In this document: positions 3,125 to 38,079 of the stretch, piece after piece
Position numbering within the stretch: position 1 is the first letter of the stretch
How the letters are laid out: every line of letters starts with the position of its first letter
Assembly: GCA_022795805.1 (NCBI GenBank)
Contig: JAAWHK010000013.1
Coordinates: 1 to 41,892 of the forward strand
Length of the DNA stretch: 41,892 nt
DNA from: Hungatella sp.
GTDB lineage: Bacteria; Bacillota; Clostridia; Lachnospirales; Lachnospiraceae
Reading direction: 5' to 3'
Notes under the pieces: model-generated
Seen by the model: the letters and a program-made list of their open reading frames with translations, nothing else
Databases searched by the model: none
Told to the model about the DNA's origin: nothing
Made by a program: the position numbers and the translations under genes

Positions 3125-5518
3125 TTATTCTTTCCTCCTGTATTCTTCCAGAAATTCCTTCAGATATTCCACCGACGATTCCGTTCTCTGCCCCTGTGTA
3201 TCCACCCGGGCCAGCATGTTCCCCTGCTCATAGCAAACCGGAACCAGCACTCCGTACTCGATTAGATCGCAGGTCAGGCTCCACGCCCGCTCCTCCTCCC
3301 CCATGTACCCGGCCTGAGCGTACACGTAGTCCGTCTCCCCGTACCTCATAAACTCCACGAAATTGTCCATATACTTGACCAGCACCACATTGCCCCATGT
3401 ACCCGTGATGTCTGCGTAGGACTGGGCACTGCAGGGGAAGGCCAGCACCTGGGGGTGTTCACCGACAGCGATGAGACGGTTTCGGGGGTCTGCGGCCAGA
3501 ATATCCCAGATCTGCCCGTTCCCCGTCTCCTCCATCCGCCTGTGCTGCTCCTTCTGATGGTCATAGTACCCTCTGTGTCTCCAGGATACGGGCGTAAAGC
3601 CCGTGGTCCAGCTCCAGTTGGTCAGAGTCATGACAATCCCCGAAAAAAGCATCACGGGGACGCTGAGCGCCAGTATGGCTTTAACCCCGTTCTCACCGGA
3701 CAGCCGCCCCAAAAGTCGGAATCCGAAAAGGGTCAAAAGCACATAAAACAGCATGAAATAGTTGCCGTCCACCTGTGTCAGCAAAAGAAGGCTGACCACG
3801 CAGCACCCGGCAAAAGGCCAGAAGACCGCGTTCAGATATCCGTCCAGCCTTCTCTCCTCCTTTGACCTGTCCTTCCTGTCCAGAATCAGGCACGCCCCGC
3901 AGACACACAGCAGAAACCACACGGCCAGGCTTCCCCAGGCCAGTATCACATGGTCCATGTCAGGCCCCTGGGGATTAAAGAGCACGCCCCAGACCCGCTT
4001 TGCCATATCCTTAATCCACTGCGTCACAGGGACGCCCGCACTGCTGTTGGGGATCTTCTGCACGTTAAACGGGTACTTCATCCGAAATCCCAGCTTTGTA
4101 AGTATGGAGGAAAACACCGAAGTCACCGGAAGGCCCGTGATCCGAAACGTCCTGGCCCAGATTCCCGAAAGGGACAGCAAGGACAGCACAAGGGCAGCGA
4201 TTCCTCCGGCCTTTCCCGCCGCTTTCTCCCCTCCCTGCCTTTTGTCTTTCTCCGCTTCTTCATCCGGTCCTGCCGCCGCTCCGCGGCCCTCACCGGTTTC
4301 CCTGCCGCTTTTTTCTCTCCCCAAAAGCCGGTCCGCCCCAAAATACACCACGCTCATCCCCATAATCACCGTGGAGAACACCAGCGCCGTGGGCTTCATG
4401 GTCCAGCTGAAGAAAAAGGCGCCCAGCCCGTACCACAGCGCCTGCCGGTCTCCTTTCAGGTACAGGAGCAGCTGATACAGCATGATCATCTGAAAACAGA
4501 GCGTGGCCGCGTCGCTTTTGGCCGTAATTCCCATATTCATGATTCCGGGAATCGAAGCCAGGAAACAGACGGCCGGCCCGGCTGTACCGCCTCCGCCCCA
4601 GAGCCGGACAATCCTGCCGGATATCCACAGAACCACGGCCAAAAGCCACAGGTTAAACCCTATGGCAAAACTGTAGGACGGCAGCACCGAAAGCGGCAGC
4701 GTCAGCACCTCAAACCCTTTGGAATAGGTGTAGACAATGCCGATGGTCCCCATGTTCTCATAGATTCCCCGCCCGTTGTCCAGTATATAGGGCGACCGTA
4801 CCCCGTACCACAGACTGTCGAAATCAACCGCAATATTCATCCGGCCTGCCTGGATGCAAAAAAAGGTCAGCACCCCGGCCCACAGAAAGCAGAGGCCCGC
4901 CTTCCACCGGCCGCCTTCGTATCCTCCCGGGGTTTCCTGCGCCCGGATGCCGTACCGTCCCGGACCTGCGGCTCCCCACAGGGACCCTCCTTTGCCGTGA
5001 CGCCGGCATATGACCTCGTCCGCGGCCACGGCTGCTGCCGACACCGCCACAAACATCCACAGATACAGAATCCGCCCCACACCAAGAGCCGACATCAGGC
5101 AGAACACCACCACCGTCAGCACGCTGCCTGTGAGAAATTCTTCGGCTTTGCCGGCCCCCGGCCTTCCTCTTCCCTGAATCTTTCCCAGAAGCCATCTCCC
5201 CATCCCCCAGAGATACGTCATATAAAGTCCGGAGACCGCCACCGCCCAAAAGGCCCTGTGAGCCCACAGAAAAACCGCCAGGATCCCGACAACTCCCGCC
5301 GCCCTTACACGCGAAGAGGGGGAACACCGAAGCGCCAAAACAAGCAGGACGAAGACCGCGCCCGTCTCCCCTGCCATGGACAGATACTCCCTCTGCCTCA
5401 CGCCCCAGGATAAAATCCCGTCTGCCAAAAGTCTGTCCCATGAATACAGGATGGCAGCCGCCGCAGCCGCTGCCAGTATCCCTATGACTGTCCGCTCTTT
5501 TCCGGTCAGATTGCCCAT
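3125..5518 (-). CDS. Large polytopic membrane protein, GT-C glycosyltransferase-like
   Basis: A 797-residue protein whose ATG at 5518 follows CAGGAGAGGTTACGT. It has a long series of hydrophobic segments, an early luminal-type loop with 'VDFDSLWYGVRSPYILDNG' (an acidic residue after the first membrane segments, as GT-C enzymes have), a very charged low-complexity loop near residue 400 rich in E, K, G and R, and a soluble C-terminal part of about 170 residues. This layout matches integral membrane sugar transferases using lipid-linked donors, but no named family motif is clear. It starts 20 bases after the PurF-like gene ends, so the two are probably cotranscribed. The alternative is a surface-polymer or lipid-modifying membrane protein without transferase activity. 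Confidence 0.7.
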   Translation of the reverse strand: MGNLTGKERTVIGILAAAAAAAILYSWDRLLADGILSWGVRQREYLSMAGETGAVFVLLVLALRCSPSSRVRAAGVVGILAVFLWAHRAFWAVAVSGLYMTYLWGMGRWLLGKIQGRGRPGAGKAEEFLTGSVLTVVVFCLMSALGVGRILYLWMFVAVSAAAVAADEVICRRHGKGGSLWGAAGPGRYGIRAQETPGGYEGGRWKAGLCFLWAGVLTFFCIQAGRMNIAVDFDSLWYGVRSPYILDNGRGIYENMGTIGIVYTYSKGFEVLTLPLSVLPSYSFAIGFNLWLLAVVLWISGRIVRLWGGGGTAGPAVCFLASIPGIMNMGITAKSDAATLCFQMIMLYQLLLYLKGDRQALWYGLGAFFFSWTMKPTALVFSTVIMGMSVVYFGADRLLGREKSGRETGEGRGAAAGPDEEAEKDKRQGGEKAAGKAGGIAALVLSLLSLSGIWARTFRITGLPVTSVFSSILTKLGFRMKYPFNVQKIPNSSAGVPVTQWIKDMAKRVWGVLFNPQGPDMDHVILAWGSLAVWFLLCVCGACLILDRKDRSKEERRLDGYLNAVFWPFAGCCVVSLLLLTQVDGNYFMLFYVLLTLFGFRLLGRLSGENGVKAILALSVPVMLFSGIVMTLTNWSWTTGFTPVSWRHRGYYDHQKEQHRRMEETGNGQIWDILAADPRNRLIAVGEHPQVLAFPCSAQSYADITGTWGNVVLVKYMDNFVEFMRYGETDYVYAQAGYMGEEERAWSLTCDLIEYGVLVPVCYEQGNMLARVDTQGQRTESSVEYLKEFLEEYRRKE

Positions 5519-26454: not shown

Positions 26455-27303
26455 TTACATTTTCCTTAAGTGACGAGTCTTTCCGCCTCTCGGCCCTCCC
26501 TGTTTTGGATTATAATCCCCCCGCATGTTTTTGAAAAGAATTCTTAAAAGCTCCTGATTTCCCTTGAAAAAACGGATCTTGGTCGGTGTTTTTCCCGATT
26601 TGGGATACGCCCTTGTCACCGGAATCTCGCATGCTTTCATCCCCAGTCTGGTTGCCCTCACCGACAGATAGGCCAGCAGTTCGTACGTCATGAATACATC
26701 TCTCAGCGGCTTCACCCGGGGATCCGCAAGATATCTCCCGGAATAAGCTCTGTACCCGTTGGTGGTGTCGGTAAATCTTTGACGGGCTGTCAGAGATATA
26801 ACCGGGGCGTGAATCAGTCTCACGGACACCAGCCTGAGAAGAGGGGTGTTCACCGCCCGGCCGCCCTTTATAAATCGGGAACCCTGAACCAGGTCGTATC
26901 CCTCCTCCAGTTTTCGGATAAAACGGGGCACATCTTCTATGCTGTCCTTGTCGTTGCCGTCAATGGTGACGACCCCTTTGTAGCCCCGTTCAAGAGCCCA
27001 CCAGATACCCATTCTCAGCTGCGCGCTCTGCCCGCCTTCATCTTTTTTTACAAGCAGTGTGTTCACTTCCAGAGATTTCAGTCTCTCGTCGTTTGTACAC
27101 CCGTCGTCAGAGTCTCCGTCGCAAATAACCAGATCCGCAAATCCGGAAACGTTATGTCTTTTTGCCCTTGTCAGCTCCCGGATTATCCTTTCTCCCTCAT
27201 TGATAATCGGAATAAGGACCGCATATTCTTTCGATTTTTCTCTGTATTCCCTGCATTGAAATTTGGGAACACCCGGCTTTTTTTCGTATAGTTTGTCATT
27301 CAT
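26455..27303 (-). CDS. Family 2 glycosyltransferase (dolichol-phosphate-mannose synthase-like)
   Basis: A 282-residue cytoplasmic GT-A enzyme without membrane segments. 'EYAVLIPIINEGERIIREL' opens the fold, 'LVICDGDSDDGCTNDERL' gives the nucleotide-binding acidic residues, and 'GVVTIDGNDKDSIEDVPRF' the metal-binding motif. 'GSRFIKGGRAVNTPLLR' and 'FTDTTNGYRAYSGRYL' are typical of polyprenyl-phosphate sugar transferases. The C-terminus is short and basic, so any membrane attachment is peripheral. Its ATG shares one base with the stop of the isomerase-like gene (TGATG), making it the last gene of the six-plus-one gene glycan operon. The donor sugar is not evident. Confidence 0.92.
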   Translation of the reverse strand: MNDKLYEKKPGVPKFQCREYREKSKEYAVLIPIINEGERIIRELTRAKRHNVSGFADLVICDGDSDDGCTNDERLKSLEVNTLLVKKDEGGQSAQLRMGIWWALERGYKGVVTIDGNDKDSIEDVPRFIRKLEEGYDLVQGSRFIKGGRAVNTPLLRLVSVRLIHAPVISLTARQRFTDTTNGYRAYSGRYLADPRVKPLRDVFMTYELLAYLSVRATRLGMKACEIPVTRAYPKSGKTPTKIRFFKGNQELLRILFKNMRGDYNPKQGGPRGGKTRHLRKM

Positions 27304-28091
27304 CAGCCAAACACGCTCCTTATGTACCGCAGACTGTCTTCCAGCACCGAAAGCTCCTCCACCCTTCCCATCTCTACGGAGACGAACCCCTGATAGCCTT
27401 CCCCCCGCAGAAACCGTGACAAGTCCCGGTGCAGCTTTCGTTCCCTTACAGGCGCCAGATTCGGTTCACTGATATGAACATGGCTGATCAGGTGCCCGCA
27501 GCCTTTTAATTCATCCGTCTCCTCCCCGTTCCAGATCATGGCTCCCACATCCAGGTTCAGCAAAAAACCTTTGGAACCCACATTTTTTACCAGCTCCAGG
27601 GCGGAGCATGTACGGTTTATATAGTTGGTGTCGTAGATCGGCGGATTCGCCTCCATTCCGATGGCGGTACCCCGCTCCAGGGCGTAATCCCCCAGCGCTC
27701 TGAAAAACAGCCTCCCTCTGTCTTCATCCGCGTTCTCGGGAAGATTTCGGTTTCCCGGACAGCCGAACACCAGATTTTTACAGTCTATGGCCGCGGCAAA
27801 GTCTATGGCCTTCCTGCTGTAATCACCAAGTATCTGCCGCTCTTCTTCTGTTCCGAACAGCTTTTCCTTTCTTCCAAACCATATGGACTGCATAGACGGA
27901 ATGACAAATCCGTACTCCCTTTCCAGCTTCTCCTTCCACTCCCTGGCCCGGGCCTTTTCTTCATATGGGCTATTTGGAAAAATTCTGGTGGGAGCGATCT
28001 CCAGTCCCGAATATCCGTACTTTTTCATCAGTTCATAAACCTTAATGTCCTGTTCCATCCCCCAGCCTATATTTGAAACCGACAATCTCAC
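27303..28091 (-). CDS. Sugar phosphate isomerase/epimerase-like TIM-barrel protein
   Basis: A 262-residue protein of the xylose-isomerase-like (AP endonuclease 2) superfamily. 'GYSGLEIAPTRIFP' and the conserved acidic and histidine metal-site segments 'GTAIGMEANPP', 'GFLLNLDVGAMIW', 'LISHVHISEPN' and 'GFVSVEMG' follow in family order. The start is a GTG at 28091 with GGAGGGGG nine bases upstream, only four bases after the stop of the large membrane protein gene. Members isomerise or epimerise sugars and cyclitols; the substrate is not evident. In this operon it most likely supplies or remodels a sugar used by the flanking glycosyltransferases. Confidence 0.87.
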   Translation of the reverse strand: MRLSVSNIGWGMEQDIKVYELMKKYGYSGLEIAPTRIFPNSPYEEKARAREWKEKLEREYGFVIPSMQSIWFGRKEKLFGTEEERQILGDYSRKAIDFAAAIDCKNLVFGCPGNRNLPENADEDRGRLFFRALGDYALERGTAIGMEANPPIYDTNYINRTCSALELVKNVGSKGFLLNLDVGAMIWNGEETDELKGCGHLISHVHISEPNLAPVRERKLHRDLSRFLRGEGYQGFVSVEMGRVEELSVLEDSLRYIRSVFG

Positions 28092-28095
28092 AAAC

Positions 28096-31000
28096 TCAGT
28101 CCCCCTCCAGAATTTTCATATCCACCTGCCGGATCTCCCCATTCTCCCACTCCAGAATGGCCGTATCTACCTGTTTCAGGTACCAGTAATAATCGCTGCT
28201 GATCCGGAACATATACTCATGAACCCCCGGGTCCACCCGGAAGGTATAAACATATTTCGGCCGGAACCCGCCGTCTTCATACGTTCCCATCTTCAGACTG
28301 GCCTGCGTGCCGCCGCCTTCATGCAGCATTCCCACTTTCAGATAACTGCCTTTCGTTCCCGTCTCTGTCCCGGAGAGATGAAATCTGTATACTCCGTCTT
28401 CGTCTTTCGCTTCAGCAGCCACAGGGTTATCACGGCTGTTCTTTCTGTCCTCCTCCGCCCAAATGCGCGGAAGGGCGTTAAGGCTGTAGCTGTGTATACA
28501 GGGCAGGCAGGTGTATAGCTCGCCGTCATCCGCCGGAAAGGGGCCGTCATATCCGTAATCGATCAGCCTGCACCCACGGCTTTCTATCTTCAGCCCTTTG
28601 ACCGTCACTCTGCTCCCCTCCGGTATGTCCAGGCGTATACGGGTCCACTCCGTGCAGGGAACTTCAAAACACGCCGTTCCCTCGCCGCTGATTGTTGCCG
28701 ACAATCGCTTATCCTCCGTGTAGTCCTCCCCCTCGTTTTCTGTGTAAAACAATTCCAACGCCCCGCAGACATCGGTTCTGTAGTGGATTTTAATGTCTAT
28801 CCGGTCATTGATATAGGGAACCATGTCAAACAGCTCCTGAAGTTCCCACACGCCGGGAGCACTTCCGGCAGAACGAATCGTTACCGTGCCGTCCCCGTTG
28901 GAAACCATCTCCGTGTGTTTCGCCAAAACGGTGCCGGGCGAAACCAGGCCATTTTTCAGCTCCATACCGTTTTCCATAAATTCTTTTACCTTTTCCTTCA
29001 TCTCCTCATACCGATCCCGAAGACACCAGACGGCAAAGGCATCCCGGTATGCGCACAGAGGTACATAATTTTGATAGATGTACTCGGCAGCTTTATAGTA
29101 TCTCACCGGGTTGGCAATCCCGTCCAGCCCCGCCGACACTCCCGGATTTTCGCTGTCCGCCGGCATAAAGACCACCGGAATTCCCTCTATTTCTTCTATA
29201 AACTTTTCCTGGGCGTACTCCCCGGACAGCTGCATGGGAGACTGGGAGACGTACGCCGGATCCCTGCGGCCCGATGTCATATAAACCGCGGTTTTATTTA
29301 TAAAATCCACAAACGTCTCGTCCTCCTCCAGAAGCATATCCAGCATAACCTCATAGCCCTTTACCGTATTTTTAAAATCCCTTTCAAAGCGTACCCGCCG
29401 AATTACAGTTTGTTCCGCCCCAGGATTGTCCGCCTTCCAGTTCTCTGTAAACTCCCCTGTCCGCCCCACGGAATTGTCGGCAGCCGAAAGCCCCAGGGAA
29501 ACATTGCCCGTAAAAAGCTGTGCGGTACATAAGATACACCCTGTGAGAACCGGAAGAAACAGTTTTTCATTTTTCCTCATGTCCGCAGCGAACATGGCGA
29601 AGAACACGCAGGATGTCCAGACGATAAACTGCATTCCCAGTTCCGGAGGTTCCGCCAGGGAATGCCTCACAAGCCCTCTGGGATAATTATAGAGATAGGC
29701 GCACCCAAGAATCAGGATGAGAAGCTGCTTCTCCCTGTCCCCCTCTTCCCCCAAAGCCTTTGAGAACACCGCCAGAGTAAGACATATGACCACCCCCATG
29801 GGCACAAAGAAATACGTCCAGACATACAGGAAGCTTCTGGGATTTCCGATCTCCCCCAGGCCCCAGTTCTGATTTGACGCGCTTATAAAAAGAAATTCCA
29901 GCAGTCTCTCCCATGGGTTCACGTTCCTGACCAAACATACGGCGCACCAGACAGCCATGGCCGCCCCGGCCACTGCCCACATGGAAGCCAGAAGCCGTCC
30001 TCCTGCCTTTTTGTTTCGCTCCATGACGCTTTGCAGCACTAAAGCAGACGCGCAGGCAGCCCCGAAGGCAAATCCCAGATCCAGCCTGTACAGGGTACAC
30101 CACCCAAAAGACAGCCAGAACCATACCCCCTTCTTAAAGTTGGGTTTCTTCCTGTATGCCGCGGCGGTCAGGCACATGAGAATACCCGGCGCCCATGCAT
30201 CCACATAATCATAGAAGGGAAAGAACAGGGCCGTCAGAAACGCCATATCCTCATCCAGCACCCGCTTTACCAGAAAGAAAAACAAAACCACTGTCATGAC
30301 AGCGGAATATTGGGAGTACGGCGAAAAAGCGGCGCCCAGGAAATCATCATTTAACAGACCGTAGATAATTCCCTCCCACACCCCGGTCATCATATGCCCG
30401 CCGTAGTGCTGGACGATGGGAATATCCCCGAAGTTTAAAAAATCACTGATCAGTATGCCCGCATTGGCGCTTTCGAACATATCCGGAGAATATTCCTTCC
30501 ATATCTCCGCCTGTCTCCACAGACACACGATCCCAACGATCACCGCCGGATAAGCGATATGCTTCCACCGCCGAAGGCAGATATCCTTTTTACTGACAAT
30601 CACAGCCAAAACCGCCGTCAGAATCAGACCGGTGACGACTGCCCCAAGGTACGCCCTCCAGGGAGACGCCAGAAAAATCTCATGCTGATTTAAAATCGCA
30701 GTCAGCTCTATAAAAAACGACGAAAAAAAGGGAAGAAAGGAGAAAGATACCACTGTAACGGTGGTCGCCGATAAAAGCTTCCTCTCCTCCCATCTGACTT
30801 TGGCAAATTTTAACGCGGCCAGAACCGCCAGGAAAGCCATCATCTGAGTTCCCAAAAGAAGGCGGCCAAAATCCAGAGCCCCGAGACGCAGGAGCGGCGA
30901 CCCGGCAATAACCATCGTCACAGGATAACCGAACATCCACCCTGAAACAATCAGCTTGGCCAGCTGCTCCGCGGTAATCCTCTCTTCCAGTCTTAACCCG

Positions 31001-31650
31001 ATGTACGCTATCCCTATGAAAATCAAAGCCGTAACCAGGTAATCCGTGTAATGGAACACCGGATGTTCCAAAAAACGGTCAGAAAAAAATCCCGCGCACC
31101 GGATTCCCTGCAGCAGGTTTGCCAAAATCATCAGTTTGTCGAGAAACTCTGCTGCCTTCCGATTCTCGCCGGAGTACTCTTTTGACCTGCAGTAGTTGGC
31201 CAGCAGGCTAAATAAGACAAAAACCACGGCCATATACAGAAACCACAGGTTAAAATTGCTCACCCTCTTTGACACGTCCACCCCGTTAATAAGTCCATGG
31301 CCTATGGTTCTGCTCATGTCCGTCACCTGAGTGCGCAGGGCATCCGCAGGGTTATATAGTCTCACAATATATACGGAAAAATAAAGCGCGTACAGAAATC
31401 CCCGCTTTTTTGCGGTATGTTTGTATACCGCCGCCATCTTTTCAATCTTTAAGACCGTGTAGCAGAGAGCCGCCGCCATTACAGCCGCAAACAGGCTCTT
31501 TACAGCCAGCTCCGTACGGCTGCAGCCGGAGACGGCGCTGTCAATGCGAAGACTTCCCAATATCACATACGGTATAGCCAGAGCCGCTGCTGCCCTGGCC
31601 GCCCCCGAAAGGTATTTCCTTTTCCGGATTTTGTCTGACACAGAACTCAT
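28096..31650 (-). CDS. Very large polytopic membrane protein of unknown family
   Basis: An 1184-residue protein with about fifteen hydrophobic segments in its first 730 residues and a soluble, probably extracytoplasmic C-terminal part of about 450 residues. The membrane part has a GT-C-like feel: 'NAGILISDFLNFGDIPIVQH' with 'YGGHMMTGVWEGIIYGL' after the ninth or tenth span, and 'YPRGLVRHSLAEPPELGMQF' before the last spans. The C-terminal part includes jelly-roll-like stretches such as 'PGVWELQELFDMVPYINDR' and 'FRVDPGVHEYMFRISSDYY'. I do not recognise a named family. Its ATG overlaps the SDR gene stop as ATGA, preceded by GGGAGG. A final surface-assembly or transfer step for the operon's glycan is inferred. 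Confidence 0.8.
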   Translation of the reverse strand: MSSVSDKIRKRKYLSGAARAAAALAIPYVILGSLRIDSAVSGCSRTELAVKSLFAAVMAAALCYTVLKIEKMAAVYKHTAKKRGFLYALYFSVYIVRLYNPADALRTQVTDMSRTIGHGLINGVDVSKRVSNFNLWFLYMAVVFVLFSLLANYCRSKEYSGENRKAAEFLDKLMILANLLQGIRCAGFFSDRFLEHPVFHYTDYLVTALIFIGIAYIGLRLEERITAEQLAKLIVSGWMFGYPVTMVIAGSPLLRLGALDFGRLLLGTQMMAFLAVLAALKFAKVRWEERKLLSATTVTVVSFSFLPFFSSFFIELTAILNQHEIFLASPWRAYLGAVVTGLILTAVLAVIVSKKDICLRRWKHIAYPAVIVGIVCLWRQAEIWKEYSPDMFESANAGILISDFLNFGDIPIVQHYGGHMMTGVWEGIIYGLLNDDFLGAAFSPYSQYSAVMTVVLFFFLVKRVLDEDMAFLTALFFPFYDYVDAWAPGILMCLTAAAYRKKPNFKKGVWFWLSFGWCTLYRLDLGFAFGAACASALVLQSVMERNKKAGGRLLASMWAVAGAAMAVWCAVCLVRNVNPWERLLEFLFISASNQNWGLGEIGNPRSFLYVWTYFFVPMGVVICLTLAVFSKALGEEGDREKQLLILILGCAYLYNYPRGLVRHSLAEPPELGMQFIVWTSCVFFAMFAADMRKNEKLFLPVLTGCILCTAQLFTGNVSLGLSAADNSVGRTGEFTENWKADNPGAEQTVIRRVRFERDFKNTVKGYEVMLDMLLEEDETFVDFINKTAVYMTSGRRDPAYVSQSPMQLSGEYAQEKFIEEIEGIPVVFMPADSENPGVSAGLDGIANPVRYYKAAEYIYQNYVPLCAYRDAFAVWCLRDRYEEMKEKVKEFMENGMELKNGLVSPGTVLAKHTEMVSNGDGTVTIRSAGSAPGVWELQELFDMVPYINDRIDIKIHYRTDVCGALELFYTENEGEDYTEDKRLSATISGEGTACFEVPCTEWTRIRLDIPEGSRVTVKGLKIESRGCRLIDYGYDGPFPADDGELYTCLPCIHSYSLNALPRIWAEEDRKNSRDNPVAAEAKDEDGVYRFHLSGTETGTKGSYLKVGMLHEGGGTQASLKMGTYEDGGFRPKYVYTFRVDPGVHEYMFRISSDYYWYLKQVDTAILEWENGEIRQVDMKILEGD

Positions 31651-32582
31651 AACTGGTGTCCTCCCGCTTTTTCACTGTCTATAAACCGGCTGATTCCTTC
31701 CAAAACCTCTTCCCGGCTCTCTATGTACCCGTCCCTGCCCCCAAATTTCTCGGCATGGATCGTCCTGCAGTTATAATCCGCCGGCGCACCGTAAAGCTCA
31801 TTGACGAATTTCTCTCCGGTGAGATAGCGGTACAGCTCCCCTGCCGTGACCGGCTCCGTGGCCGGATGCCACAGGGTGATTTCTTCTTTCAGAGCCGTCT
31901 GAATATCCCCCCACAGCCTTGAGAGTGCGTAGAACTGAAAGGCGCTCCTGCTGTCCGTGAATCGGAGGGCGGAGAAGCCTGTTTTTCTGAATTTTTCTTT
32001 CAGCTTTTCCCTGTCACGGTCCGCTGCCTCCAGCCGAAAGAACCCGTTGTCCAGAGGCCTGTAATACGCTTTCAGTTCCGGTTCCTTCACAGAGAGCCTG
32101 CGAAATGTTTCCCCACTGAGCATGAAGGGAATCCGGTTCATATAGTCATAGATAAAATTTTTCTTTATGTATTTCCCGTACAGCCCCGGCAGCCTGACAA
32201 TCAGAGCGTCAGGATATGTTTCCCGTACCCGCTTTTCCAGCTGATAACGGTTATATCCGTAAGCCTGAAGGTTTCCTGTGTCCACCGGGGAATTCTCATC
32301 CACATCTTTGGGAACACCAAAAACATCAATGGTCGAGATCAGCACCAGTTTCTTCGGATTAATCTTCAAAATATTATCCTCCGCCTGGCGTACAAGCTCC
32401 ATGTCCTGTTTCGGGGCATGGTTGGCCAGATACTTCTCTGCCTTAAGCCCCGCATAGATCAGAAGATCCGGATTGGTCCTGTATGCCTCCGAAATATTTT
32501 TTGAATGATAGACGGCGTCAAAAAATCCGCTGTCGTAGAGGTTAGAGCCCACAAACCCTGTATATCCCACCAATGCCTTCAT
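31647..32582 (-). CDS. NAD(P)-dependent epimerase/dehydratase (extended SDR)
   Basis: A 311-residue extended short-chain dehydrogenase. The nucleotide loop 'ALVGYTGFVGSNL' lies at the very N-terminus, 'KLVLISTIDVFG' supplies the catalytic Ser/Thr strand, and 'YGYNRYQLEKRV' gives the Tyr-x3-Lys pair. The C-terminal substrate region is unusual in length and composition ('YRPLDNGFFRLEAADRDREK') and does not match the common GalE or RmlB types. The ATG at 32582 follows AGGGAGAATATGAG. It lies between a GT2 and the large membrane protein gene in the glycan operon, so a nucleotide-sugar or sugar substrate is likely. Specificity is unknown. Confidence 0.88.
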   Translation of the reverse strand: MKALVGYTGFVGSNLYDSGFFDAVYHSKNISEAYRTNPDLLIYAGLKAEKYLANHAPKQDMELVRQAEDNILKINPKKLVLISTIDVFGVPKDVDENSPVDTGNLQAYGYNRYQLEKRVRETYPDALIVRLPGLYGKYIKKNFIYDYMNRIPFMLSGETFRRLSVKEPELKAYYRPLDNGFFRLEAADRDREKLKEKFRKTGFSALRFTDSRSAFQFYALSRLWGDIQTALKEEITLWHPATEPVTAGELYRYLTGEKFVNELYGAPADYNCRTIHAEKFGGRDGYIESREEVLEGISRFIDSEKAGGHQL

Positions 32583-32605
32583 CTCATATTCTCCCTTATG
32601 ACTGT

Positions 32606-33541
32606 TTATGTAATCTTCTCGATGCTCTCAAAACTGTAATGCCTGCGTTTGAACACGATGTCTATAAGAAGCTGAAGATATTTTACGATTATGGTCAGGA
32701 TCCCGAACAGGCCGAGAAACGCCGCGGAAAAGAACAGGATCGTCGTCGTCCAGCCCTCCACCGGATGGCCTCCTGCATAGACCGCCACGGAATAGATAAT
32801 CATACACAATGAGATGAGCATCATCGCCGCCGTCATCCCGATGGAGAACCTGTAACCCAGTTCCGTGAAAAGAATCAGTGAGTCCGCCGCCAGGCCTGCC
32901 CTGTAATGCTTCTCCTGAATATCGGCTGCAGGCATATCCCCGACTCCCGCCTGATACCTTATGTTGTCGGTTTTAAGCCCGCAGTTGGCGTAAATGGCCT
33001 TCCGATACAAAATGGCCTTGTTCATGGAGCTGATTCGGTTGATCACCCGCCTGCTGAGCACCCTGAAACTCTCCGTGGACAGGTGGTATGAGAGATTGGT
33101 AAACCGATCAAATACCCTGTAAAAAAGTCTTGAAGAGAATCTTTCTCTCCTGTCAGGAGAAGCGCTGACAATATCAAACCCCGCCAGGGAACGGCGGTAT
33201 ACATCCATGACCACCGACGGAGCAAAGTCCAGAACGGTGTTGTCAAATTCAAAGACAAAATCCCCGATGGCCATATCCACACCCGCGTTCATGGCCAGTT
33301 CAAGTCCGTGGAAGTAACTCATGCTTATCACCGTAATGCTTGTGCTTTCGGCCGCCTGTCCCACCTGTTTGATCCGCTCCACGCTGTTGTCCCCCGACGC
33401 GTCATTGACGCATATAATCTCAGAGTGCCGGAAGTTCTCCTCCAGTACCCCTATAATCGTTTTCAGAAACGCTTCTGCCCTCTTTTCAGCATTATGTATA
33501 TATATAACCGCCGACACAAAATTTTTCTCTTTATCCGCCAT
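32606..33541 (-). CDS. Family 2 glycosyltransferase with two C-terminal membrane segments
   Basis: Start at 33541 (311 residues) with GAGGTGCTTGAAG upstream; it overlaps the end of the FAD oxidoreductase gene by 11 bases. The GT-A domain shows 'FVSAVIYIHNAEKRAEAFL', 'EIICVNDASGDNSVERI' and 'NAGVDMAIGDFVFEFDN', the last being a degenerate metal site where D-x-D would be expected. Two hydrophobic spans near the C-terminus ('MMLISLCMIIYSVAVYAG', 'LFFSAAFLGLFGILTIIV') resemble GtrB/DPM-type enzymes that charge polyprenyl phosphate. Reduced conservation of the acidic motif leaves room for altered or lost activity. Confidence 0.85.
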   Translation of the reverse strand: MADKEKNFVSAVIYIHNAEKRAEAFLKTIIGVLEENFRHSEIICVNDASGDNSVERIKQVGQAAESTSITVISMSYFHGLELAMNAGVDMAIGDFVFEFDNTVLDFAPSVVMDVYRRSLAGFDIVSASPDRRERFSSRLFYRVFDRFTNLSYHLSTESFRVLSRRVINRISSMNKAILYRKAIYANCGLKTDNIRYQAGVGDMPAADIQEKHYRAGLAADSLILFTELGYRFSIGMTAAMMLISLCMIIYSVAVYAGGHPVEGWTTTILFFSAAFLGLFGILTIIVKYLQLLIDIVFKRRHYSFESIEKIT

Positions 33542-34688
33542 CTTCAAGCACCTCATCCAGGTCATAGACCGTGTTTATCTTTCCCGACAGAACACTGACA
33601 AACGCAGGGTTCTCCGAATATTTCCTGATCAACGTAGGCCTTGAATCGTCGATCTCTGAGCTCATCAGAACGGGTTTCATGGAAAACAGAGAACTTCTGT
33701 ACTCAAATTTGTAGTCATCCAGCATATACTTTCTGGCAAGGTTTTCCATATAGGGAAAGGCCGTGGCAGGCCTGGCGGGACAGTCGTTGCAGTTCCCCAG
33801 ACGAAAGGCCGAACAGTAACCGTCGCTCTTTTCCTGGCACAAAAAAACGGGCACATCCCTGCAGCTTGTGGCATGGGGTGTAAAGGTGACAGATGTAAGG
33901 GAGTGACAGCCTGTCCTGCCAAAAGGCATGATGGAGAAAAAGGGCCCGTCCATAACCGTTAAGCCCACAGAGCTCAGTTTGTCATTAACGTCGCAGAGGA
34001 TAATCTCGCAGAGCTCGTATTTGACGGCGAATTTCTCACCTCCCGCCATGTCAAGAATCTGGTTGGCTCCGGCATAGGCGGCATTGAGCACAAACCGCGA
34101 GGCATACGCGCCCCTGTCCTCTGTACCGATTACATAGACATCTCCCTTGCGGCTCACGCTCTTTATCCTGACTCCAAATTTCATCTCCAGAGTCTTGGGA
34201 TATTCTCCAAGCTCTTTCAGCAGATGTTCTTTCAGAATCGCGGCATCGTAGGTGTACTCCCTGGTTCTGAAGGCCCCGTCGCACATGCCCTCTTTAAAGT
34301 AATTCCCCGGATGAAGCTCTTCACAGGGGATATGCGCGGCCCTGCAGAATTCTTTAAACTGCCTGCTGTCAGACCAGGAATATTTGCTTGACGTAGCATA
34401 GATTTGATCAAATTCCCTGTTAATGCAAAAGCCGTAGTCGCGGTTGAACCGCTCGAAGTAGCCTGCCGATTTCATGGCGGTGGAGATGGAACGTGGATAG
34501 TGATAACCCTGGTGGACTCTCGCCTGGTTGATGTAGGTCGCCCTGCGAAAGGGCGCCGGGTCGCATTCAAGCACCAGCACCCGCTGTCCTCTTCTGCAGC
34601 AGAAAAGAGCGGCGTACAGGCCATACAGACCCGCACCGATTATTATCCTGTCGTATGTATCCACTGACAACGCTTCCTGAATGATCAT
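33531..34688 (-). CDS. FAD-dependent oxidoreductase (DAO-like) of a surface-glycan operon
   Basis: A 385-residue flavoprotein. The dinucleotide loop 'DRIIIGAGLYGLYAALFCCR' and 'RVLVLECDPAPFRRATYINQ' mark the FAD domain; 'RVHQGYHYPRSISTAMKSA' follows, a stretch found in DAO-fold oxidoreductases of polysaccharide loci. A C-terminal region has 'LFSMKPVLMSSEIDDSRPTL'. A cysteine cluster ('GNCNDCPARP', about residues 298-307) is noticeable. The ATG at 34688 overlaps the stop of the 56-residue upstream gene as ATGA. It probably oxidises a sugar or cyclitol hydroxyl, feeding the epimerase- and isomerase-like enzymes downstream. The actual substrate is unknown. Confidence 0.85.
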   Translation of the reverse strand: MIIQEALSVDTYDRIIIGAGLYGLYAALFCCRRGQRVLVLECDPAPFRRATYINQARVHQGYHYPRSISTAMKSAGYFERFNRDYGFCINREFDQIYATSSKYSWSDSRQFKEFCRAAHIPCEELHPGNYFKEGMCDGAFRTREYTYDAAILKEHLLKELGEYPKTLEMKFGVRIKSVSRKGDVYVIGTEDRGAYASRFVLNAAYAGANQILDMAGGEKFAVKYELCEIILCDVNDKLSSVGLTVMDGPFFSIMPFGRTGCHSLTSVTFTPHATSCRDVPVFLCQEKSDGYCSAFRLGNCNDCPARPATAFPYMENLARKYMLDDYKFEYRSSLFSMKPVLMSSEIDDSRPTLIRKYSENPAFVSVLSGKINTVYDLDEVLEDGG

Positions 34689-34855
34689 GCCTTCTGCCTT
34701 GGAAGCTTTCGGGACGCTCCCTCACCAGCCATCTGTTTTTGCAGCAAACAATGGATCCATCCCTTTAAGTAGAAATAATCATCCGGGCTGCAGTTCCTGA
34801 TTGCATTCAATTTTAATGCCGTATCTTTAATATCTTCCGCTTTTTGCGCGTTCAT
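34685..34855 (-). CDS. Small 56-residue two-helix protein, candidate antirepressor
   Basis: A 57-codon frame, ATG at 34855 with GAGGAGAGACACAAA upstream and a stop overlapping the oxidoreductase start (ATGA). It lies 27 bases behind a consensus promoter, so it should be well translated. The peptide reads as two amphipathic helices (about residues 3-20 and 25-42, 'DDYFYLKGWIHCLLQKQ') and a basic tail. Its second half resembles the C-terminus of the divergent XRE repressor: 'SPDDYFYLKGWIHCLL' beside 'NNEDQELVKKLINSLA'. That is the size and logic of SinI beside SinR. An antirepressor role is inference; it could also be a structural or phage-derived small protein. Confidence 0.72.
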   Translation of the reverse strand: MNAQKAEDIKDTALKLNAIRNCSPDDYFYLKGWIHCLLQKQMAGEGASRKLPRQKA

Positions 34856-34879
34856 TTTGTGTCTCTCCTCTCTGTTTTC

Positions 34880-34953
34880 ATTGAAATCAATATACCATTC
34901 TTTGAAAACATTGTCAAGAATATTCAGAATTCTTTGTTTACTTTGAAATCAAA
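34880..34953. promoter_or_regulatory. Three operator-like sites (TTGA-N2-TCAA) of the divergent switch
   Basis: O1 is ATTGAAATCAAT (34880-34891), O3 is TTTGAAATCAAA (34942-34953), both perfect 5-bp inverted repeats around AA. O2 at 34901-34912, TTTGAAAACATT, keeps one half. Centre distances are 21 and 41 bases, close to two and four helical turns. O1 overlaps the -10 box and start of the leftward promoter, O2 fills its spacer, and O3 lies in the spacer of the rightward promoter. Confidence 0.7.
34889..34917 (-). promoter_or_regulatory. Consensus promoter of the glycan operon
   Basis: On the minus strand a perfect TTGACA (34912-34917) and TATATT (34889-34894) are 17 bases apart, with transcription starting near 34882. 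It drives the small protein gene and, by the overlaps that follow, probably all genes to 26455. Confidence 0.85.
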
Positions 34954-34965
34954 TTGTGCTATAGT
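34937..34965 (+). promoter_or_regulatory. Promoter of the XRE repressor gene
   Basis: TTTACT (34937-34942) and TATAGT (34960-34965) are 17 bases apart; the message would begin near 34972, next to the GGAGG of the XRE gene, leaving a very short leader. The O3 operator fills the spacer, suggesting autoregulation. Confidence 0.75.
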
Positions 34966-34985
34966 GCTTTCATGGAGGTGAAAAC

Positions 34986-35330
34986 ATGAATATCCATGAA
35001 AGGCTAAAATTTCTGCGGGATCAGCTTAACCTAACTACTCGTGCTTTTGGTTCCGCCATCAGTATGTCCGGCGGGGCTATTACAAATATGGAAAAAGGGA
35101 CACGGAACATAACCGACCGTACCATTCGTGACATATGCCGTGAATACAACGTAAATCCGGACTGGCTTATCAATGGCAGTGAACCAATATTCGGAGACGT
35201 AACCGATGAACTGGACATTGATGATGACGTGAGACAGCTTACCAAGCAATATAGTTTGCTGAATAATGAAGACCAGGAACTTGTTAAAAAGCTGATCAAT
35301 TCACTGGCTAAAAAAGCGGAGGGCCAGTGA
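34986..35330 (+). CDS. XRE-family (CI/SinR-like) repressor
   Basis: A 114-residue protein starting at 34986 after GGAGGTGAAAAC. The N-terminal helix-turn-helix ('IHERLKFLRDQLNLTTRAFG', 'SMSGGAITNMEKGTRNITDR', 'CREYNVNPDWLINGSEPIF') is of the phage CI type common in clostridia. An acidic linker then leads to a C-terminal helical pair ('VRQLTKQYSLLNNEDQELVK', 'KLINSLAKK') that would form the dimer interface. Divergent consensus promoters and TTGA-N2-TCAA operators in the 130-base gap point to control of itself and of the glycan operon. A controller role for the nearby restriction system is possible but less likely, because another gene lies between. Confidence 0.92.
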   Translation: MNIHERLKFLRDQLNLTTRAFGSAISMSGGAITNMEKGTRNITDRTIRDICREYNVNPDWLINGSEPIFGDVTDELDIDDDVRQLTKQYSLLNNEDQELVKKLINSLAKKAEGQ

Positions 35331-35340
35331 GAATATTTTT
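35301..35340 (+). terminator. Terminator of the XRE gene
   Basis: TCACTGGC (35301-35308) and GCCAGTGA (35323-35330) pair perfectly across the last codons and stop of the gene, followed by GAATATTTTT and further T-runs. Confidence 0.7.
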
Positions 35341-35377
35341 CTGCCGCGTTTTTTTGTCTTCCCTTTTTTTTTTCTTG

Positions 35378-35806: not shown

Positions 35807-35848
35807 ATGTATTTGTGAGATTCCCCCTAGAAAGAGAGGATGCAAATT

Positions 35849-36685
35849 ATGCGGAAAAATCGTCTCGTTGCGCCTGTTGTAAAATGGGTTGGCGGTAAAC
35901 GACAACTTTTAGATGATTTAACACCATTATTTCCAAAACGGGTTGCCTCTTATTGTGAACCATTCTTAGGCGGAGGTGCCGTTTTATTTAAGTTACAGCC
36001 TAATATTGCATATGTTAATGATATTAATTCTGAGCTCATTCAAATGTATGAGGTTATTCGGGATAATGTTGATGAACTGATTATCGCTTTAGGTGAGCAT
36101 CCAAATGAAGCAGATCATTTTTATAGTGTTCGGGATTGGGATAGAGATAAGGAACAGTATAGACGATTGACCAAAGTGCAGAGAGCCGCGCGTATTATTT
36201 ACTTGAACAAAACGTGTTATAACGGTCTTTTCAGAGTAAATAATGCCGGAGAGTTTAACACTCCCTATGGACACTACAAAAATCCCAATATTGTAAATGC
36301 TCCTACGTTAAAAGCTGTCAGTGCTTACTTTCAGAAAGCACAAGTGGCTTTTAGCAGTGTTGATTATGCCCAAGTGCTGGCCAATGTAGCAAAAGGAACT
36401 TTTGTCTATCTGGATCCGCCATATGATCCCGTTTCTGATACAGCTAATTTTACGGGCTATGCAAAGGGCGGCTTTGACCGCTCAGAACAAATCCGTCTGC
36501 GGCAATGCTGTGACGAACTCAATCGGCGTGGAATCAAATTTATGCTTTCAAATTCTGCAACGGATTTTATCAAAGAACAATTCGCTGCTTATAATATTAC
36601 CATAGTAAAAGCAAAACGTGCTATTAACTCTAACGCTGCAAAGCGCGGTCAAGTGGATGAAGTGGTGGTAAGAAATTATGAGTGA
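35849..36685 (+). CDS. DNA adenine methyltransferase (D12 class, DpnM-like) of a type II RM system
   Basis: A 278-residue N6-adenine methylase. 'APVVKWVGGKRQLLDDLTPL' is the N-terminal cofactor region, 'YCEPFLGGGAVLFKL' the F-x-G-G motif, 'LNKTCYNGLFRVNNAGEFN' and 'TPYGHYKNP' the D12-family middle, and 'FVYLDPPYDPVSDTANF' contains the catalytic D-P-P-Y. The order and spacing resemble M.DpnII/M.MboI, so methylation of GATC is likely but not proven. The start at 35849 has AGAGAGG upstream; an ATG at 35840 abuts that site. It overlaps the endonuclease gene by eight bases. Base composition is much richer in A and T than the neighbours, a sign of transfer. Confidence 0.93.
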   Translation: MRKNRLVAPVVKWVGGKRQLLDDLTPLFPKRVASYCEPFLGGGAVLFKLQPNIAYVNDINSELIQMYEVIRDNVDELIIALGEHPNEADHFYSVRDWDRDKEQYRRLTKVQRAARIIYLNKTCYNGLFRVNNAGEFNTPYGHYKNPNIVNAPTLKAVSAYFQKAQVAFSSVDYAQVLANVAKGTFVYLDPPYDPVSDTANFTGYAKGGFDRSEQIRLRQCCDELNRRGIKFMLSNSATDFIKEQFAAYNITIVKAKRAINSNAAKRGQVDEVVVRNYE

Positions 36686-37973
36686 GCCGCCAAAAAGCCA
36701 AAACGACAAAGCATGGGAAGCCTTGTTTGAAAAGTATGATATTCTGCCGCAGATTGAATCAGATGGAAAATTTATTATCTCTGCGTCTCAAATAAAAGAA
36801 TATCGTGAACCCCGATTGATGGCAAAGTTTGATCACAACGTCAATCTGCCGCAGATTTTTGCCAAGAACGGCCTTGCTATCTTGCCCATTTCCCGCGGAG
36901 ATTACATTATTTCTCATTTTAAGGCTTATCAGCCATTTGAAATGCCGGATAAATCCATTACTCATGCTTCTTTACCGACTGCCCTTCAAAGCCTTGATGC
37001 AAATAACATTCCAAGTGAGGCTATCGCCATAAATTGTGCTTTGGCTTCAGGTATGCTCACAGATTTTTTAGAGGAAGATATCCTTTATTCTACTGTATCA
37101 GGACGTATGGGATCAGGACGATTTGATTTTAGTATTCAGAACTCCTGTACAAAAACTCCCACATCCGTTTCAGTGAACAATTCTCAAATTGAAATAGATG
37201 CCGCTTTTGAAGGTGTTCACAGCCTTTCCTTGATCGAAGCCAAACGGGATTTATCGGAAGATTTTCTTGTACGGCAGTTATATTATCCGTATCGAGTATG
37301 GCGCGATCGTGTTACAAAGAAGGTTAAACCGATCTTTCTTGTTTATTCCAACGGAATATTTAGCTTGTATGAGTACGAATTTCAAAATCCTGATTCCTAT
37401 AATTCACTGGTGCTTGTAAAGCACAAAAATTATTCGATTGAAGATACAGCAATAGAGCTTTCGGATCTGCAACATGTTGCCTTTCGTACAAAAACTGTTG
37501 CTGAACCAAATATCTCTTTTCCACAAGCAAATAGTTTTGAGCGGGTTATCAATATATGCGAATTACTAAATGCTCAGGAATTGAGTCGTGAACAAGTTAC
37601 AGAAGAATATGCGTTTGATATTCGGCAAACAAATTATTATACGGATGCTGCAAGATACCTGGGACTGCTTGAAAAACATTATGAAGATGGTCGTAAACCA
37701 ATATATTCCTTAAGTGCATCGGGCAAACGTATCATGAATTTAAATTATAAACAACGGCAGCTGGCATTTTGCGAAGCCATTTTGCAGCATCGTGCTTTTA
37801 AAGAAACATTCAATCATTGTATGGAAATGGGCTCGATGCCCGATACGTCAGCAATTGTTGCTATTATGCTGGAATCTAATCTTTATAAGGTTGAATGCAT
37901 GAGCACATATGTACGGCGTTCCTCTACAATCAGTGGTTGGATAAATTGGATGCTGGGATTAATAGAGGCGTAA
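36678..37973 (+). CDS. Type II restriction endonuclease, PD-(D/E)XK type
   Basis: A 431-residue protein whose ATG lies inside the end of the methylase gene. The nuclease core is 'SQIEIDAAFEGVHSLSLIEA' followed by K-R-D: an acidic residue, then E-A-K, the D-(x)n-E-x-K arrangement of PD-(D/E)XK enzymes, near residues 172-195. A helical 'QLYYPYRVWRDRVTKKVKPI' follows. The C-terminal 130 residues contain a winged-helix-like part ('YTDAARYLGLLEKHYEDG', 'PIYSLSASGKRIMNL') that may recognise DNA. The site should be that of the cognate methylase. Low GC like its partner. The pair has no convincing promoter of its own and may be read from the NusG-II promoter. Confidence 0.88.
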   Translation: MSEPPKSQNDKAWEALFEKYDILPQIESDGKFIISASQIKEYREPRLMAKFDHNVNLPQIFAKNGLAILPISRGDYIISHFKAYQPFEMPDKSITHASLPTALQSLDANNIPSEAIAINCALASGMLTDFLEEDILYSTVSGRMGSGRFDFSIQNSCTKTPTSVSVNNSQIEIDAAFEGVHSLSLIEAKRDLSEDFLVRQLYYPYRVWRDRVTKKVKPIFLVYSNGIFSLYEYEFQNPDSYNSLVLVKHKNYSIEDTAIELSDLQHVAFRTKTVAEPNISFPQANSFERVINICELLNAQELSREQVTEEYAFDIRQTNYYTDAARYLGLLEKHYEDGRKPIYSLSASGKRIMNLNYKQRQLAFCEAILQHRAFKETFNHCMEMGSMPDTSAIVAIMLESNLYKVECMSTYVRRSSTISGWINWMLGLIEA

Positions 37974-38050
37974 ATGACGGACAGGCAGTCATTCACGCCC
38001 TTAACCAGCAGTCAGAAAGGCGAACAGACCCTCACAGCCTGTTCGCCTTT
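37967..38050. terminator. Two tandem hairpins between the RM pair and the Rnf operon
   Basis: GGCGTAAATGA (37967-37977) / TCATTCACGCC (37989-37999) covers the endonuclease stop codon. AAAGGCGAACAG (38016-38027) / CTGTTCGCCTTT (38039-38050) is a perfect 12-bp stem that ends both the rightward RM transcript and the leftward rnf transcript. Confidence 0.85.
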
Positions 38051-38079
38051 CACTTTCATTATCAATCCCTGTTTCCTTC

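Follow-up and report, generated by a model that had tools for sequence, protein, structure and literature searches.

What kind of switch stands at the head of a putative surface-glycan operon in Hungatella sp.? At the locus in question, a 114-residue repressor of the XRE type, with a helix-turn-helix (HTH) domain, is encoded back to back with a small two-helix protein of 56 residues. The locus lies on contig JAAWHK010000013.1 (C39) of assembly GCA_022795805.1 (2.55 Mb, 131 contigs, 78% complete), and this entire contig of 41,892 nucleotides is the window analysed here. A first-pass annotation had likened the pair to SinI/SinR of Bacillus subtilis. Our analysis keeps the divergent repressor/small-protein switch heading a putative glycan operon, and gives up the assignment to the SinI/SinR family. 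We found a divergent layout of the phage type with predicted operator boxes at both promoters, the same module in prophages, and the module together with the putative glycan genes in one stretch missing from relatives. The explanation towards which we lean, as a probable one, is a phage or mobile-element immunity-type switch whose small protein would antagonise the repressor via its C-terminal domain, and which now heads a putative surface-glycan cassette. The switch is composed of the following elements.

34986..35330, plus strand: XRE repressor gene, 114 amino acids (Pfam HTH_19, 1.4e-11)
34685..34855, minus strand: gene of the small two-helix protein, 56 amino acids, proposed antirepressor-type partner (ORF, relatives, model)
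34856..34985: divergent promoter/operator region, 130 bp between the start codons (8-locus alignment)
34889..34917, minus strand: promoter of the small gene and operon, TTGACA-17-TATATT with TG before the -10, 11/12 (site scan; TTGACA invariant in the 8-locus alignment)
34937..34965, plus strand: XRE promoter, TTTACT-17-TATAGT, 9/12 (site scan and 8-locus alignment)
34882..34889, minus strand: operator box O_C (TGATTTCA), adjoining the -10 of the small-gene promoter
34873-34880, plus strand: fifth box, forming a 17-bp palindrome together with O_C
34903..34910, minus strand: operator box O_B (TGTTTTCA), between the -35 and the -10 of the small-gene promoter
34944..34951, minus strand: operator box O_A (TGATTTCA), between the -35 and the -10 of the XRE promoter
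34965..34972, plus strand: operator box O_D (TGCTTTCA), adjoining the -10 of the XRE promoter

The two genes, the 130 bp between them and the two consensus-like promoters had already been proposed at first pass and held up, as did the overlap of the small-gene TGA with the ATG of the next gene (ATGA, 34688-34685). The operator boxes, the relatives in phages and the insert described below are new relative to that annotation. Mean column identity across the spacer is 84% in an alignment of eight rows, and six promoter-like sites were counted in 1.2 kb, versus 2.0 +/- 1.3 in shuffles. Boxes of the form TGNTTTCA occur five times within the 130 bp, over both promoters (dinucleotide-shuffle mean 0.14, with 0 of 5000 shuffles reaching five), and each promoter of the window has one box in its spacer and one adjoining its -10. 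Each of the seven distinct loci that carry the divergent pair has exact copies of O_D, O_A and O_C, and four of them (the window, L014, L019 and L021) have an exact O_B as well; O_D and O_A are spaced by 21 bp in 7/7 loci, and in the four where O_B is exact its distance to O_C is also 21 bp. The spacing between O_A and O_C falls into two classes, 61-63 bp (the window, L014, L015, L018) and 52-53 bp (L016, L019, L021), which differ by about one helical turn. An XRE/CI-type repressor that diverges from a first early-type gene, with predicted operators over both promoters, corresponds to the layout of a phage lysogeny switch, and the repressor likely binds the predicted boxes. A longer operator pattern, TGNTTTCAAWGWAWNN, has three matches in the 2.55-Mb genome, all in this intergenic region and at no promoter besides the switch's own (reversed-pattern control, 0), a count taken with a fifth of the genome missing and with a pattern that weaker sites would escape. 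The confinement of this pattern to a single locus argues against a SinR-like regulon and suggests that the XRE factor is most likely a local self-regulator.

The repressor matches Pfam HTH_19 and HTH_3, both over the cut-off, and the Pfam scan gives nothing beyond the HTH; its nearest NCBIfam models, phage RstR (1e-8) and DicA (5e-5), are both below the cut-off. The predicted model (mean predicted local distance difference test, pLDDT, of 81.5) places the HTH at about residues 5-64 and a C-terminal two-helix hairpin at 80-90 and 94-112, with block pLDDT values of 73-84 in the hairpin. The best Foldseek match of this model is the P22 c2 repressor (3.3e-4), and the arbitrium-phage repressors 9iaq and 9sf2 and SinR (1b0n) also match at E 0.01-0.02; these matches rest mostly on the HTH, and the alignment with 9iaq_B covers 113 columns with a TM-score of 0.55 and a root-mean-square deviation of 4.8. 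The Pfam scan found no protease-type domain in the repressor, so that its induction would need an antagonist. In the near-identical loci L017 and L018, the repressor is directly followed, on the same strand, by another XRE gene (5135-5509 in both) whose product has a similar C-terminal hairpin.

The same module occurs in prophages and, at one locus, near a relaxase gene. Relatives of the small protein were located at 10 distinct loci, 7 of which, including the window, have a divergent repressor at 122-132 bp. As judged by tblastn with both proteins, the divergent pair occurs in L002/L014 (one genome), L015, L016, L017/L018/L022 (near-identical), L019 and L021, with repressors 61-80% and small proteins 43-68% identical to those of the window. 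According to PHROGs matches, an integrase, NinB and a DnaD-like protein are encoded near the pair in L015, a Mu-type transposase and its ATPase in L018, where an Ant anti-repressor also follows right behind the small gene, and Sak4 with an SSB-like protein in L021; in L019, a relaxase gene lies about 3 kb away. Four of the seven distinct loci are thus phage- or relaxase-linked. PBECR4 phage-type nuclease genes were also observed a few kb downstream of the small gene (L014:9755-10315 and L019:9267-10007) and are possibly cargo of the same switch. The remaining three loci comprise a co-directional one (L044), an orphan (L023) and a short damaged remnant (L020); in L044:831-1629 (G470:C123), a distant relative of the small protein (E 3e-7) is encoded in the same direction, downstream of an XRE gene.

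The pair is rare. It was detected in the window's genome and one other among 200 genomes of the family, in 4 of 392 genomes of the order (the window's included), and at no fewer than 7 loci, that is at least 7, in the species-genome collection, where short peptide patterns give a lower bound. Within the genus (26 genomes), L023 was the only find besides the window once weak matches (E 0.03 and above) are set aside; eleven of these, all to the small protein (L024-L034, E 0.03 to 0.72), stand outside the locus counts. In the window, no phage gene was recognised at the place of the switch in Pfam, NCBIfam and PHROGs scans; its neighbours are glycan-type, NusG-II, methylase and Rnf-type genes, and the switch is not within a recognisable prophage. 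The Rnf-type names are those that we take the genes to have from their sequences.

Judged by its conservation, the small open reading frame (ORF) is one that encodes a real protein: seven aligned relatives (43-68% identical, L017 and L018 nearly identical) share 20 invariant columns, and in the pairs computed nonsynonymous divergence (dN) is 0.02-0.21 and synonymous divergence (dS) ranges from 0.76 to saturation. AlphaFold predicts a hairpin of two helices (residues 3-22 and 24-47) with block pLDDT values of 87-96 over residues 1-40, in agreement with the two-helix fold proposed at first pass. The small protein has no Pfam or NCBIfam match at E 1 and a weak match to phrog_6272 (58 amino acids, unknown function; E 0.012, residues 4-38), and a scan of 299 genomes with that family returned one weak match, the already known locus of genome G184. 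It has no match among PDB sequences beyond one chance hit at E 4, and its tblastn search of phage records gave no match; Foldseek returned nothing for the 56-residue model, which says little for so short a hairpin. A viral scan with the small-protein alignment recovered only two loci, both already known, and the repressor alignment recovered the same two together with L077. A Cro protein, which would bind DNA through an HTH, was considered for the small gene and is not supported, given the hairpin model and the lack of any HTH family in the Pfam, NCBIfam and PHROGs scans.

The comparison with SinI/SinR, as that system is described in PMC3163267, draws on the protein sizes, the HTH with a C-terminal hairpin, the small hairpin protein and the glycan-type genes downstream. 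If the pair were SinI/SinR proper, the small protein would mimic the oligomerisation hairpin of the repressor in sequence, the two would pair through an intermolecular four-helix bundle, and the repressor would be a regulon-wide regulator of exopolysaccharide genes. The first-pass annotation had in fact noted a resemblance between the second half of the small protein and the C-terminal helices of the repressor, and hhalign returns this register (24-43 on 94-113), but with a probability of 0.1% and P 0.54. The idea was tested on a main set of loci, set A. From 52 loci, 8 were removed by name (five window-type copies, L088, L102 and L108), 4 further ones offered no ribosome-binding site before any divergent ORF and in 4 the first such ORF exceeded 80 amino acids, which left 36 pairs for the own-versus-mismatched comparison and for the Mantel tests below. 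Small proteins were no more alike to their own repressors than to mismatched ones (mean z 0.21 vs 0.48, permutation p 0.91, n=36; window pair z 0.49; control against the own HTH, p 0.12), and on a profile of the repressor C-terminus they did no better than shuffles, the first real one ranking below 16 of these. The resemblance is therefore not beyond chance, and a test set up to support the SinI idea went against it. The SinI domain (PF08671) had no match at E 1 in the small protein or the XRE protein and none over the cut-off in the genome, where one sub-threshold match lies elsewhere (E 0.46); 1 of 14 control genomes had a match over the cut-off. The missing SinI domain, the divergent orientation and the absence of mimicry, unlike what is described for B. 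subtilis, leave membership of the SinI/SinR family unsupported; the single-locus operator pattern and close relatives in phage immunity regions also speak against it. The pair is, in addition, not tied to glycan genes elsewhere, and we regard SinI/SinR proper as improbable.

If the small protein does not copy the repressor, what connects the two? In 45 mostly Clostridial loci (L102 retained), XRE repressors are commonly faced by a short divergent ORF, and these ORFs form several recurring families in phmmer clusters; in a sample of ten such microproteins, none had a Pfam family over the cut-off and most lacked a clear PHROG. Of the 45 repressor loci, 37 have, as first divergent ORF, one of 35-80 amino acids with a ribosome-binding site, versus 22/89 other genes of the same loci (Fisher p 2e-10), a contrast that partly reflects gene position, the 89 control genes including operon-internal ones for which a divergent neighbour is unusual. 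Whichever ORF came first in the divergent direction was accepted regardless of its sequence, so that some lie outside the class: those of L106, L115 and L141 look HTH-like, and those of L099, L135 and L155 look like noise. A second set, B, was reduced from 44 loci (10 excluded, 9 redundant) to 25 pairs, and gives 61 pairs together with set A; it was located partly with set-A queries and is non-redundant rather than fully independent. Loci were retrieved for 13 of the 15 repressor places that were still without one.

Over these pairs, the small protein follows the C-terminus of its repressor and not its HTH. In set A (n=36), Mantel tests gave r 0.40 (p 0.0002) against the C-terminus and r 0.07 (p 0.13) against the HTH; in set B (n=25), the values were r 0.31 (p 0.0002) and r 0.15 (p 0.07). 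For all 61 pairs, plain correlations were 0.41 (p 0.0002) and 0.12 (p 0.012), and partial Mantel correlations 0.394 (p 0.0002) and 0.055 (p 0.15), where p 0.0002 is the smallest value obtainable with 5000 permutations. The HTH and the operators separate the small gene from the C-terminal part of the repressor gene, so that plain linkage would favour the HTH, the opposite of this result. Individual loci agree: in L133, the small protein (3e-4) and the C-terminus (8e-6) both match the window's profiles, and in L077, the HTH is close (0.73) and the C-terminus (0.09) and the small protein (0.11) are both different. Of the antirepressor pairing proposed at first pass, the tie of the small protein to the C-terminal domain by inheritance thus stands and the pair-specific mimicry falls. 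These patterns lend moderate support to partner recognition through the C-terminal domain that does not copy its sequence.

Inheritance together with the C-terminus would fit any direct partner, including a co-repressor or modulator like Mor, which, rather than simply lifting repression, would change the repressor's choice of promoter. The CI/Mor systems of TP901-1 and phi13, as portrayed in PMC11149083, share with the window a small repressor partner, the transcription of both genes from one switch region and the same genetic position, and Mor is described there as both antirepressor and corepressor. That source presents Mor as an HTH protein known to form its complex with the N-terminal domain of the repressor, in contrast to a hairpin tied to the C-terminal domain here, and we judge a Mor-like role unlikely, if still worth some weight.

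Another explanation is that the small gene is an early phage gene or a translational leader without action on the repressor, so that after capture only the repressed promoter would matter. The small gene is the first of an operon-like run, its stop overlaps or touches the following start codon in the window, L015, L018 and L021 (by eye), and pairwise mimicry is absent, all of which would suit a leader. A leader would leave unaccounted for the tracking of the repressor C-terminus, the conservation of the small ORF as a protein and the altered residues where the repressor has been lost. The last point concerns L023, where an orphan small gene (L023:1498-1665; G223:C15) has no repressor at its locus, the closest repressor in that genome (65% complete) being distant (E 3e-10). 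By eye, the TTGACA and TATAAT hexamers are kept there and the boxes are without their TTTCA core; 5 of 19 otherwise invariant residues of the protein are changed, including L16P and W33R. When each of seven members was left out in turn, six showed 0-2 violations and the most distant, L019, showed 6/25, so that the count in L023 is not decisive alone and it is the kind of change that suggests lost constraint. L023 thus suggests a natural loss with relaxed constraint on the small protein, and we consider a gene without action on the repressor unlikely.

How did the switch come to head glycan genes? The genes behind the small gene, and the stretch that contains them, are as follows.

33531..34688, minus strand: FAD-dependent oxidoreductase, first putative glycan operon gene (Pfam DAO 3.1e-13)
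32606..33565, minus strand: GT2 glycosyltransferase, PgfS-like (Pfam 7.1e-11; PgfS 5e-25, below the model cut-off)
31647..32582, minus strand: RmlD/epimerase-like protein (RmlD 2.8e-5, below cut-off)
28096..31650, minus strand: 1184-residue protein, hydrophobic by eye (no Pfam match over cut-off)
27303..28091, minus strand: xylose-isomerase-like TIM barrel (Pfam 3.2e-18)
26455..27303, minus strand: GT2 polyprenyl-phosphate glycosyltransferase-like protein (PpgS 3.3e-12, below cut-off)
26471..35342: 8.9-kb insert comprising the switch and the putative glycan operon (right edge placed by eye, give or take 10-25 bp)

Besides all six genes of the putative glycan operon, this insert contains the small gene and the repressor, whose stop lies some 12-22 bp from the right edge. 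On the left, homology stops at 26469/26470 in six relatives (L048-L051, L053, L065); on the right, it is back at 35352 or 35366 in three (L048-L050), and by eye maybe at 35343. A DUF5722 (glycosidase-like) gene and the NusG-II gene are adjacent in same-genus relatives and 9 kb apart in the window: both are seen, about 200-700 bp apart, in 7 of 19 relatives with a NusG-II match (L048, L049, L050, L051, L053, L056 and L065), the other stretches showing other genes or ending. The last codons of the terminal GT2 gene (window 26455-26470) lie within DNA common to the insert-free relatives, so it is the target site that supplies the stop of this gene. Inspection of the insert ends by eye revealed neither inverted repeats nor a target duplication, and a Pfam scan of the insert genes found no recombinase. 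Glycan genes and switch possibly arrived in one event; arrival in two steps, or loss in the relatives, is also possible.

The glycan operon is likely under control of the switch, because a conserved promoter precedes the small gene and the ATGA overlap joins the small gene to the oxidoreductase gene. Full-length homologues of the oxidoreductase align from residue 9-11, so that a GTG at codon 9 may be its older start. A link of the pair with glycan loci, as the first-pass comparison implied, is not conserved: homologues of the first glycan gene occur in 4 other genomes of the genus, in other clusters, the stretches around them matched neither the small protein nor the XRE protein at E 1e-4, and elsewhere the pair heads genes other than glycan-type ones. 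Phage-borne gtr glycosyltransferase operons depend on DNA methylation for their switching. They resemble the window in being horizontally acquired surface-glycan genes with switched expression, and differ in that the switch here would be a repressor.

On the other side of NusG-II, a second insert (window 35807-38079), between NusG-II and rnfB, encodes a Dam-family methylase (TIGR00571, 3.2e-90) and a 431-residue protein (DUF6996/6997/7226) that is perhaps the methylase's endonuclease. In L050 this site measures 73 bp, and neither gene was matched in any of the 19 relatives' stretches. The XRE gene lies on the same strand, 0.5 kb upstream of the methylase, C proteins are among its Foldseek matches and an HSDR_N-type protein is encoded 1.4 kb from the L015 repressor, so that it could be taken for the controller (C) protein of the adjacent methylase/restriction genes. 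The boxes, however, lie over the divergent promoters and not before the methylase, and NusG-II, which is native to the site, lies between the two. The C-protein explanation was dropped since the XRE gene and the methylase belong to separate inserts, and we give it next to no credence.

In the explanation that we favour, an immunity-type switch with an antagonistic small protein, the repressor on its boxes would shut the promoter of the small gene and the glycan genes and limit its own. The small protein would be made only when repression slips; it would then act on the C-terminal hairpin of the repressor and weaken it, and positive feedback would turn the operon on, giving two self-sustaining states, glycan off and glycan on. 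Antagonism through the C-terminal domain is, in our assessment, moderately likely.

Several observations weigh against this explanation. Pair-specific sequence mimicry is absent. The Mantel correlations are modest, and the rank correlations are weak (0.16 for the C-terminus and 0.07 for the HTH in A+B) and in set B alone reversed (0.08 vs 0.19), so that the signal comes from clearly related pairs and not from the bulk. The plain HTH correlation over 61 pairs, small as it is, is nominally significant and vanishes only in the partial test; moreover, choosing loci by repressor similarity narrowed the range of the HTH, and set B shares part of its origin with set A. L135 has a C-terminus like that of the window (8e-7), yet the ORF taken as its small protein fails to match. 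In L018, the small gene is followed by a classical anti-repressor gene (Ant), and at that locus induction may be due to something other than the small protein. That the switch controls the glycan genes is argued from gene order and the ATGA overlap, and an operon-internal promoter is possible. Finally, interaction, DNA binding and expression are all read from sequence, and the structures are single-chain models.

Small phage-encoded proteins are well known as inactivators of cI (PMC11323111, PMC10432266), and among described systems the phage TF-smORF (transcription factor-small ORF) modules come to mind (Silpe et al. 2023, PMC10432266), in which a 50-60-residue protein is transcribed away from an XRE-type or other regulator gene. 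As reported there, the smORFs studied inactivate phage cI and bear little mutual resemblance; the smORF is activated by its regulator and acts on a separate cI. Here, by contrast, a single XRE protein is encoded next door and is also the likely target, and glycan-type genes follow. For Clostridium clostridioforme prophages, two divergent genes with predicted divergent promoters were reported in the lysogeny module of 10/15 (PMC11318856); those authors call the pairs CI/Cro-like, whereas the small protein here is without an HTH. AimX and the repressor of arbitrium phages (PDB 9iaq and 9sf2, compared by entry titles only) compare with the window in the alignment of the repressor model given above and in a small protein, here a proposed antirepressor; the window's small protein, as given above, has no PDB sequence match beyond E 4 and nothing from Foldseek, and AimR and AimP were not searched for.

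Among the best-ranked papers in searches of the open-licence literature, we recognised no account of divergent hairpin proteins matched to repressor C-termini. A wider proposal, which we advance tentatively and rate below an even chance, is that many hairpin microproteins, most of them still without a name, are encoded divergently from repressors in temperate phages and mobile elements of Clostridia, each matched to the C-terminal domain of its repressor while the HTH and operators are exchanged, and that this portable bistable switch has been captured here for a surface-glycan cassette, giving phage-style epigenetic coat variation in a gut commensal. Such a pattern would provide a sequence-based handle on repressor-antirepressor specificity, the kind of small protein being predictable from the C-terminal domain. 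If true, a switch with which viruses stay dormant would now serve the bacterium in controlling its surface, and phage and immune recognition would be changed cell by cell.

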